A stretch of DNA of 64,000 nt from an uncultured Actinomycetes bacterium (GTDB lineage Bacteria > Actinomycetota > Acidimicrobiia > Acidimicrobiales > RAAP-2), in the NCBI GenBank assembly GCA_903924205.1, contig CAIYAP010000003.1:1-64000 (forward strand), written 5' to 3'. The translations under genes were made by a program, and so were the position numbers. Each line of letters starts with the position of its first letter. The first letter of the stretch is position 1. A model generated the notes under the pieces. It saw nothing but the letters and a program-made list of their open reading frames with translations, made no database searches and had not been told where the DNA came from. Positions 1,391 to 3,486 of this stretch are shown in pieces.

Positions 1391-1666
1391 TTCACCCCGC
1401 AGCCCAACGGGGAACCCATCATCCCGAATGCCATTGCCCTGTGAAAAATTCACCATGCCTTCTATGACCGAATTCTCTTGGGGATTAGACCCAATTGTCA
1501 GGTCGAAATTAATGCCGATCTCCTGTTGGAGATAGATGGCCCCATGCTGAAGCATGGCCTCCAGGAAATGAACGGACAAAAGCTGCTCATACCTTCATCT
1601 GCGCAGTCTCGCCCAGACCCCGAACGCCTTCAAGTGCGTTACGAAGAGTTCAAGAACGCTTTGTAA
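1391..1666 (+). pseudogene. remnant of an HNH endonuclease (HNH_2 type), 3' part only
   Basis: One frame encodes the C-terminal end of an actinobacterial HNH nuclease of the 'putative restriction endonuclease' group. The order is a GEPI segment, then NAIAL, a stop, KIHHAFYD (the HNH zinc/catalytic segment) and DGPMLKHGLQEM, ending at the TAA at 1664-1666. The TGA at 1442-1444 stands where the family has the Cys of a C-K-x-H-H motif, so TGC to TGA is the likely lesion. A further in-frame TAG lies at 1385-1387, and no 5' part is recognisable before the IS end at 1254. The family assignment rests on remembered motif patterns, not on a search. Confidence 0.6.
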
Positions 1667-1731
1667 CCTTCGATGAGTGAATCGCACTGGGAATGTTGGA
1701 GACTCAACGCTTTGGAAACAAGGATGGAGTT

Positions 1732-2073
1732 ATGGGAAACAACAACCAGCGCAGAAGCCCTCAAGCGAGGCGCTACTCACCTGAGGAAAAGGCGCAGGCG
1801 ATTCGCCTCGTGCGGACGCTCCGAGATGAACTCGGGACGTCACGAGGAACCGTTCAACGGGTGGCGAATCAACTCGGCTATGGCGTTGAAAGGGTCAAGT
1901 CCTGGGTTCGTCAAGCCGATATCGATGAGGGAATCATTGGTGGCGTCACCACGGCCGACAAGCAACGGATTGCCGAGCTTGAGCAAGAGAACAAGGAACT
2001 GCGGCGAGCGAATTCGATCCTAAAGAGCGCCTCGGCTTTTTTTGCGGCGGAGCTCGACCGCCCACAGAGGTGA
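1732..2073 (+). CDS. IS3-family transposase OrfA, copy 2
   Basis: A 113-residue protein with an N-terminal helix-turn-helix (RRYSPEEKAQAIRLVR, then TVQRVANQLG) and a C-terminal zipper-like segment (IAELEQENKELRRANSILKS). The ATG at 1732 was chosen because a purine-rich stretch (AAGGATGGAG) precedes it; the upstream alternative at 1693 would lie outside the left inverted repeat. The stop at 2071-2073 overlaps the GTG of orfB. The T7 run at 2037-2043 near the 3' end is a candidate frameshift site. Confidence 0.88.
   Translation: MGNNNQRRSPQARRYSPEEKAQAIRLVRTLRDELGTSRGTVQRVANQLGYGVERVKSWVRQADIDEGIIGGVTTADKQRIAELEQENKELRRANSILKSASAFFAAELDRPQR
2037..2043 (+). other. putative -1 frameshift site of IS copy 2 (T TTT TTT)
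   Basis: Seven consecutive T residues are read as TTT TTT (Phe-Phe) in the orfA frame, which matches the X XXY YYZ slippery heptamer. The -1 frame is the orfB frame and is open from this run into orfB, so a slip would fuse the two products. Function is inferred from the family. Confidence 0.5.
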
Positions 2074-2975
2074 GTGTTCGTTTCGTCGACGAGCACAAGG
2101 AAGAGTTCGGGGTCGAGCCCATCTGCGACACACTGCAGATTGCCCCCAGCACCTACTACGCCGCCAAGACGAGGCCAATCTCGGCACGCGCTCTCAACGA
2201 CGAGGTCTTGGGCAACGCCCTCTGCGAGATTCACGCCGCCAATTTCTCGGTCTATGGGACTCGCAAGATGTGGAAGGCCATGCGCCGAGCGGGTCACGAC
2301 GTTGGTCGAGACCAAGTGGCCAGGCTCATGAGAAACCAAGGCCTCTATGGGGTCAGACGAGCCAAGAAGGTGAGGACCACGAGACGCGACGACTCAGCAC
2401 CTCGCTCACCAGACCTGGTCGAGCGCAACTTCACCGCCTCATCTCCGAACCAGCTCTGGGTCACGGATCTGACCTACGTGCCCACTTGGCAAGGGGTCGC
2501 CTACGTCTGTTTCATTACCGATGTCTATAGCCGCATGATCGTGGGGTGGCGAGTGGCGAGTCACATGCGCACCGACATGGTCTTAGACGCCCTCGAGATG
2601 GCGAGATGGCAGCGGGGCTCTCAACTTACCGACCTGCGGTGCCATTCCGATGCCGGAGCTCAATTCACGAGCATCCGCTACGGCGAGCGCCTAGACGAAA
2701 TTGGCGCTCGTCCCTCGATTGGCAGCGTCGGAGATTCCTACGACAACGCCCTCGCCGAGAGTGTCAACGCCCTCTACAAGACCGAACTCATGAGAGGACC
2801 GGGACGAGGACCGTGGAAGACCATTGACGAGCTCGAACTCGCCACGTTGACCTGGGTTCACTGGCACAATCACGGCCGATTGCATAGCTATCTCGGCGAC
2901 GTTCCACCCGCCGAGTTCGAGGCGACCTACACTTCGAAAGTCGGCGAACGATCGCTGGCAGAAATCACAAGCTGA
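2070..2975 (+). CDS. IS3-family transposase OrfB, copy 2
   Basis: A 301-residue DDE transposase. The triad is D in WVTDLTYV, D in CHSDAGAQF and E in ALAESVNALYKTEL. The C-terminus has the usual HWHNHGRLHSYLG...PPAEFE block. The second-Asp motif is HSDAGAQ, where most relatives have HSDRGSQ, so an Arg-to-Ala change sits next to the catalytic Asp. The GTG start at 2070 overlaps the orfA stop (GTGA). The frame is otherwise full length. Confidence 0.92.
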   Translation: MSVRFVDEHKEEFGVEPICDTLQIAPSTYYAAKTRPISARALNDEVLGNALCEIHAANFSVYGTRKMWKAMRRAGHDVGRDQVARLMRNQGLYGVRRAKKVRTTRRDDSAPRSPDLVERNFTASSPNQLWVTDLTYVPTWQGVAYVCFITDVYSRMIVGWRVASHMRTDMVLDALEMARWQRGSQLTDLRCHSDAGAQFTSIRYGERLDEIGARPSIGSVGDSYDNALAESVNALYKTELMRGPGRGPWKTIDELELATLTWVHWHNHGRLHSYLGDVPPAEFEATYTSKVGERSLAEITS

Positions 2976-2984
2976 AAGTCTCCA

Positions 2985-3180
2985 CTAAACCCAGTGCGAT
3001 TCAGAGTGATGCCTTCGCGGAAGCAGGCGTTTTGCTGCTCACTTCGGGCGCCTCGCGGGCGCTTCAAGTCGTTTTGGGCACCTTCGGGCGCCTCAAATTG
3101 GAGTTTTGAGGAATCCAGTGAGTGTTCACGGAAACTCTCAATCCCCCTTATTTACAGGGGAAAGTGCCGGTGGGCTTGAG
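2985..3180. other. intergenic stretch right of IS copy 2, no gene seen
   Basis: No convincing coding frame is present. A 13-bp direct repeat CTTCGGGCGCCTC occurs at 3042-3054 and 3082-3094. A short hairpin (CCCC-TTATTTACA-GGGG) lies near 3145-3162. CTCTCAA and TTGAGAG at about 3134 and 3176 form a longer-range inverted pair that ends beside the tRNA fragment at 3181. This looks like debris of past insertions. Confidence 0.4.
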
Positions 3181-3230
3181 AGCGGGCGACGGGAATCGAA
3201 CCCGCGTTCTCAGCTTGGGAAGCAGAGTTC
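3181..3230 (-). pseudogene. 3' half of a tRNA-Gly (CCC), 5' half missing
   Basis: Read on the minus strand, this stretch has an anticodon arm with loop TTCCCAA, a perfect T-arm (GCGGG TTCGATT CCCGT), the 3' acceptor strand CGCCCGC and the discriminator T. The matching 5' acceptor strand and D-arm are absent, so it cannot fold as a tRNA. It matches the intact tRNA-Gly at 3416-3486 at 39 of 43 positions over 3181-3223. The acceptor differs by one base (GCGGGCG against GCGGGTG). Such 3' halves are typical scars of integrases that target tRNA genes. Confidence 0.75.
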
Positions 3231-3368
3231 GAGCAAGTCAACGTGTCGAAATGCGATAAGAGCACAAGATTTTTCAGTCTGGGAACCAGGAGGCATCTCG
3301 ATTCCACAGGACTAGTTGGTTCCATAAAACTTCAGGTGGGCCACCACCCGATTCGAGGGTCGAAATAG

Positions 3369-3394
3369 CATGGACACAGGTTCGGGTGTCCATG
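3369..3394. terminator. hairpin downstream of tRNA-Gly
   Basis: CATGGACAC at 3369-3377 and GTGTCCATG at 3386-3394 form a perfect 9-bp stem with an 8-nt loop. It lies 22 nt past the 3' end of the minus-strand tRNA-Gly, where a terminator or processing hairpin would be expected. No strong U run follows, so its role is uncertain. Confidence 0.4.
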
Positions 3395-3415
3395 ATGTCT
3401 TGAGTCATAACAGCG

Positions 3416-3486
3416 AGCGGGTGACGGGAATCGAACCCGCGTGGCCAGCTTGGGAAGCTGGAACTCTGCCATTGAGCTACACCCGC
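3416..3486 (-). tRNA. tRNA-Gly (anticodon CCC)
   Basis: The reverse complement folds as a full cloverleaf of 71 nt. It has acceptor GCGGGTG/CACCCGC, D-stem GCTC/GAGT, anticodon stem CCAGC/GCTGG with loop TTCCCAA (anticodon CCC) and T-arm GCGGG-TTCGATT-CCCGT, with discriminator T. CCA is not encoded. It reads GGG codons. A partial copy of its 3' half lies at 3181-3230. Confidence 0.93.

Follow-up and report, generated by a model that had tools for sequence, protein, structure and literature searches.

The short tRNA fragment that lies past an intact tRNA-Gly(CCC) gene in this genome is, with a probability that we put at roughly 85%, the core of a relic attachment junction left by integrative elements that land in the dcd-linked tRNA-Gly(CCC) gene. 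The window, by which we mean the whole stretch of 64,000 nucleotides that was analysed, is the start of contig C3 in a genome of 1.66 Mb in 7 contigs. The intact tRNA gene, which combines a remodelled body with a GCGGGTG acceptor, was identified at 3415..3486 on the minus strand with ARAGORN and Rfam (RF00005, 65.2 bits). The fragment was delimited by direct-repeat comparison at 3180..3223, also on the minus strand; it is a 3' half of tRNA-Gly(CCC) that begins at the anticodon stem-loop and has the usual sequence of the genus. The two form a direct repeat (3180-3223 against 3415-3458) with 40 of 44 positions identical and a start-to-start distance of 235, the half lying past the 3' end of the tRNA and separated from the whole gene by 191 nt. 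When the half was used as a query against the whole genome, the tRNA was matched with E = 2.1e-11, which excludes chance. A 3' half past the intact tRNA-Gly in the same orientation, as announced by the original prediction, is therefore real; the predicted spacing of about 190 bp holds, whereas the predicted length of 50 nt has to be shortened to 44 nt. The difference between the acceptors, GCGGGCG in the half against GCGGGTG in the whole tRNA (read on the plus strand), is also present as described.

Two further copies of the half exist in the genome, at C3:82247-82290 and C2:350374-350415, with no intact tRNA around either, i.e., two of the three copies are far from the tRNA. Across the 42 nt that extend from its anticodon loop to its acceptor end, the window half is identical both to these two copies (42/42 nt) and to the dcd-linked tRNA-Gly(CCC) found in relatives, G350 among them (42/42 nt). 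A decayed duplicate of the neighbouring tRNA, arising locally by duplication or slippage and without any mobile element, would fit the common orientation, the distance of 191 nt and the 40/44 identity of the two sequences. The half, however, differs from that neighbour at 4 of 44 positions and is the same as two distant copies and the usual gene over 42 of 42. We regard this scenario as very improbable and rejected it, given that the sequences on either side of the half are found again at the other copies in this genome.

The flanks of these copies are combined in different ways around the same core. Homology between the window and the C2 copy starts exactly at the anticodon loop TTCCCAA and continues into the flank past the tRNA end, and homology between the window and the C3-right copy spans the flank before the half and stops with the half. 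The left, P-like arm (3222..3363, minus strand) is common to the copy at C3:82.2 kb (blastn, 77% over 186 nt including the half). The right, P'-like arm (3043..3179, minus strand) is common to the copy at C2:350.4 kb (89% over 179 nt including the half) and to the tRNA flank of G350 (86%), where it stands directly after an intact tRNA of the usual type. Because each flank of the window half recurs at a different half, the structure resembles a junction at which one element directly follows another, and the half is not simply the far end of one island. Left and right arms that vary around a common core are what one would expect at a point where two elements abut, the right end of the first against the left end of the second. 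A search for the right arm over 298 genomes of the order returned matches in three of them, namely this genome, G350 and G353 (21 nt only in the latter). Between the tRNA and the left arm lies a short stretch (3364..3414, minus strand) that had no match in the other copies of this genome or in the sister genome. An assembly or binning artefact, in which foreign or collapsed repeat sequence had been placed beside a contig end, was also considered, since the window starts at a contig end inside an insertion sequence and the half is present three times. However, the half is 3.2 kb away from the contig end, the surroundings differ among its three copies, and 31 of the 61 genomes of the genus contain at least two matches to the half pattern (with intact tRNAs counted). 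We therefore consider an artefact extremely improbable.

The right arm contains three direct repeats of the motif GARGCGCCC, located by motif match at 3046..3054, 3057..3065 and 3086..3094 (all on the minus strand), and five copies are found in the C3-right arm. All five matches (5/5) in the 11-kb piece L009 fall inside the C3-right arm, a number reached by none of 200 shuffles. The whole 64-kb window has four matches, which is unremarkable (22 of 100 shuffles reach four). At least two copies within 250 nt downstream were observed at 7 of 170 distinct tRNA or half sites, three of the seven being copies of this genome, against 12 of 3400 control pieces drawn at random from the same loci, which may overlap those arms. 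Two copies 11 nt apart are also found past the tRNA in both L178 and L307. The gaps between the tRNA acceptor end and the repeats, computed from their positions, are 105 and 116 nt in L178 and L307, 85, 114 and 125 nt in the window, and 84, 113 and 124 nt in G350. We infer that these repeats are candidate arm-type integrase sites. A second motif, TGTCCAC, appeared by eye to be common to the right arms; it was dropped, as it was seen 9 times against a shuffle mean of 5.0 and a maximum of 11 (200 shuffles). Among the matches listed for phage records (20 of 292) and plasmid records (20 of 56), only the tRNA part of the query was covered.

In the nearest sister, G386, the site is empty. Its dcd is 98% identical to that of the genome under study, and its assembly is 94% complete. 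The same remodelled tRNA is followed in G386 by 16 nt and then by a fatty-acid desaturase gene (named by eye). The alignment of the window with G386 (84% from 3415 on) stops exactly at the tRNA 3' end, and no match to the half pattern was found in G386 at up to 3 mismatches. The desaturase of the present genome is located close to the right-hand end of contig C2; after it come a DUF6996/6997/7226 protein, a D12-class DNA adenine methylase and, at the contig end, a transposase (by eye). Since the desaturase that flanks the tRNA in the sister is found near the end of C2, an island separates the tRNA from the desaturase here, and the middle of this island is lost in the contig gap between insertion sequences. 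No tRNA 3' half was found at the desaturase end of the island on C2. The DUF6996/6997/7226 protein and the D12-class methylase at this end of C2 (L287 9451-11678), in the part of the island past the desaturase, are probably a restriction-modification pair.

Two IS3-type insertion sequences accompany the half, as had been predicted. The first, inside the element, spans 1678..3003 on the plus strand, with 27-nt inverted ends, ORFs at 1693-2073 and 2070-2975, and an ALIL pseudoknot at 2034-2147. The second occupies the contig end (1..1254, plus strand; ends set by eye) with ORFs at 50-370 and 367-1242. Pfam identified helix-turn-helix and integrase-core transposase pairs in both, and an ALIL frameshift element is found in one. 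The broken nuclease expected alongside is likewise there, as the C-terminal remnant of an HNH endonuclease at 1445..1666 on the plus strand, probably a relic of cargo. In tblastn it matched eight plasmid records with 35-47% identity, all eight annotated as HNH endonuclease, and a Pfam search with two ORFs of the remnant returned no family. In G350, the right arm is followed by an ORF that we took by eye for an HNH-type gene; this ORF had no match in the stretches of the present genome that were searched.

Several other features of the contigs bearing these copies were recorded. The right end of C3 (L009 10900-11040) and the left end of C5 (L230 1-141) have 141 identical bases in common, so that the two contigs probably adjoin. 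Beside the C3-right half copy (L009 6512-8999) are HipBA and an unnamed 187-aa gene, whose order is swapped in the sister (G386:C164). A repetitive gene of 1629 aa, fibronectin-like by eye, has an insertion sequence on one side and the C2 half copy on the other (L010 3421-8310), and a 1743-aa ORF in the G017 array (L044 7994-13225) looks similar to it. When the map locus at the C2 copy was compared with six relatives, homology stopped at the end of map in five, and the G386 contig starts inside map.

The half pattern is widespread in the genus. With up to 3 mismatches allowed and intact tRNAs included, it was found in 47 of 61 genus genomes, and the reversed-pattern control gave 0. It was absent from the other 14, including 6 of the 37 genomes with a completeness of 90% or more and a contamination of 5% or less. 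The titles of contigs with the exact pattern, among the matches listed, were mainly those of Acidimicrobiaceae and of other Acidimicrobiia or Actinomycetota assemblies. In relatives, the intact gene of the usual type is found 70 nt to 4.8 kb from dcd, which is the place of the window's tRNA, and halves lie beyond the intact tRNA in the same orientation, 0.6-28 kb apart. We counted 159 sites (halves and intact tRNAs) in 65 genomes, with 44 neighbouring pairs on common contigs. All 40 pairs within 30 kb (40/40) were same-facing, with a median distance of 3.7 kb and 17 of them at most 3 kb apart; the 30-kb limit was our own choice, and of the 4 wider pairs among the 44 that it excluded, two were opposed (C3 of this genome and G364:C29). 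We also profiled 50 of the 55 sites taken as halves, at least one of which (L205) resembles a tRNA that ARAGORN did not call, and obtained a conserved block from the anticodon stem to the tRNA end with both flanks variable.

In the pieces examined, few genes and no integrase were often present between halves. Segments between halves encode, e.g., an AAA/DUF4143 protein, a PemK toxin, an oxidoreductase, a GNAT protein, a PadR regulator, a luciferase-like protein and a dihydroxy-acid dehydratase; this gene content comes from five chosen arrays and is no census. Ten array ORFs were searched for families, of which four had none and one had only a match below the cut-off. The usual tRNA at this place acts as an integration hotspot in relatives. 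Separately, an IMG/VR viral contig of 82.7 kb contains the same half near its end (L224 118-157) and is possibly a prophage of this kind.

Several relatives (e.g., L040, L053, L141, L173, L178 and L208) have a tyrosine integrase and the intact tRNA-Gly(CCC) on one and the same stretch, as judged with a rough, home-made profile built from ORFs picked by motif. The two integrases that were tried with Pfam, those of L040 and L053, were both confirmed as Phage_integrase, with a SAM-like N-terminus in each. The integrase of L208 is located about 90 nt from the tRNA. The L178 and L307 integrases, of a 371-aa type, are encoded 2.1 and 7.8 kb from the tRNA and are 95% identical to each other; the L040 integrase is 61-62% identical to them. 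The central claim of the original prediction, the scar of an integrative element at a tRNA-Gly hotspot, is supported by G386, which is without the half, and by relatives with integrases and further halves. The same rough profile also identified tyrosine integrases near tRNA-Gly(TCC) in relatives (L022 and L024), where there is possibly a second hotspot.

No integrase is left in the window's element. This makes it a relic and not an intact element, with part of the island in the contig gap. A search of 15 stretches of this genome detected no integrase fragment. The genome has two PF00589 matches, which by size and neighbours we take to be XerC/XerD-like; an integrase of its own as driver was rejected, as these are its only two.

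The whole tRNA gene of the window is itself atypical. We examined 43 pieces, consisting of the 30 best dcd matches and 13 chosen ones, from 81 genomes with a dcd match; 36 had the CCC tRNA, 6 had dcd without the CCC tRNA and 1 was without dcd. Among the 36 dcd-linked tRNA-Gly(CCC) genes, that of the window included, 33 are of the usual type, with 0-6 differences. The other three have a TCC-like body: those of this genome (window 3415-3486), G386 and G382 (L234 and L275). They differ from the usual gene at 12, 12 and 10 positions, respectively, and from the TCC-type tRNA-Gly at 5, 5 and 7. In a dcd tree of 188 residues, G382 is not sister to this genome and G386, and the TCC-type bodies occupy two separate places. 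The half had been predicted to derive from another tRNA-Gly type and to be foreign; it has instead the usual dcd-linked CCC sequence found in 33 of the 36 genes. It is doubtful that the half is the foreign part: the half has the native sequence, and the window's whole tRNA is the unusual one. A TCC-type body could, in addition, alter the target site of the integrases.

This arrangement raises the alternative that the half is what remains of an ancestral whole tRNA-Gly(CCC), replaced by a remodelled newcomer and subsequently deprived of its 5' half. The usual sequence of the half and the remodelling of the whole gene, in G386 too, are compatible with this history. However, the sequence upstream of the anticodon loop is the arm common to the C3-right copy and no 5' half, conservation breaks near the anticodon stem-loop across the 50 profiled halves, and G386 has the remodelled gene without the half. 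We consider this history improbable and retain the attachment junction as the best reading. A single simple insertion does not yield the observed order of a remodelled tRNA followed by a half of the usual type; this order would result from an insertion that preceded the remodelling, or from a rearrangement among the genome's own copies.

Under the attachment-junction reading, the attachment site of each element would include a copy of the tRNA 3' half. Strand exchange by a tyrosine integrase would take place within the anticodon loop (TTCCCAA), which is flanked by the inverted stems TCAGC/GCTGA. The incoming half would complete the tRNA and the previous half would be pushed to the far end. After repeated insertion, a row of same-facing halves would result, in which every half has the right end of an element on one side and the left end of the following element on the other. 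A single junction of this kind is left in the window (left arm, half, and right arm with repeats), the remainder having presumably been cut down and invaded by the two insertion sequences.

The mechanism of integration into tRNA genes is textbook knowledge, and rows of tRNA or ssrA 3' ends that divide islands are known already. The rows of tRNA-Gly(CCC) halves in relatives are a new instance of such accretion arrays. Among the papers listed in searches of open-licence literature, none described a tRNA-Gly array in Acidimicrobiia. The interest of the system lies in how often this bacterial group stacks insertions at one tRNA-Gly gene, which points to a frequent insertion hotspot in a poorly studied and mostly uncultured bacterial class. 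The 42-nt half provides a marker for cutting island segments out of assemblies, and candidate integrases and arm sites are named here. A bolder and rather unlikely extension is that Acidimicrobiia have an integron-like system at the dcd-linked tRNA-Gly(CCC), in which small integrase-less cassettes (toxin, acetyltransferase, oxidoreductase or restriction-type), each ending in the 3' half, would be inserted and shuffled in trans by a shared integrase, and in which a few lineages, including this one, would have converted the tRNA to a TCC-type body, maybe closing the site to such cassettes. Integrons proper are marked by an IntI-type integrase and attC hairpins; the sites here are tRNA 3' halves, and the integrases of L040 and L053 match Phage_integrase. 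If small integrase-less segments do move in trans, this would constitute another route for collecting single genes beside integrons.

Several described systems resemble this one in part. The attB of actinophages B22, E1, BritBrat, Spooky and Jace is tRNA-Gly-CCC with a core of 42-47 bp, as given in PMC10865867. The account there matches ours in the tRNA species, in a 42-47 bp core common with the tRNA and in the rebuilding of the tRNA on integration; unlike those phages, the window keeps only a junction with no integrase, and the relatives concerned are Acidimicrobiia. In the additive flexible island fGI-2 of Methylophilaceae, as described in PMC10872708, repeated copies of the final 20 nt of tRNA-Lys serve as markers. 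Both there and here, islands that vary in size (330 bp-42 kb in that description) and content are marked by tRNA 3'-end repeats whose number varies; the present system differs in its tRNA, in its longer core of 42-44 nt, which includes the anticodon loop, and in its phylum. Tycheposons, as described in the same source (PMC10872708), are likewise tRNA-bordered cargo elements with a tyrosine recombinase, whereas the window's element has no recombinase left. The feature that defines accretion arrays, several same-facing halves past an intact tRNA, is found in the relatives; the present genome has one half beside the tRNA and two elsewhere. The ssrA genomic islands of Dehalococcoides are reported in PMC3146451 as tandem and bounded by 20-bp ssrA direct repeats, with 15 lacking an integration module. 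What they have in common with the rows described here is accretion, in which segments that have an integrase and segments that lack one are lined up at a single RNA gene, but they involve a serine recombinase and ssrA, whereas tyrosine integrases and tRNA-Gly(CCC) are involved here.
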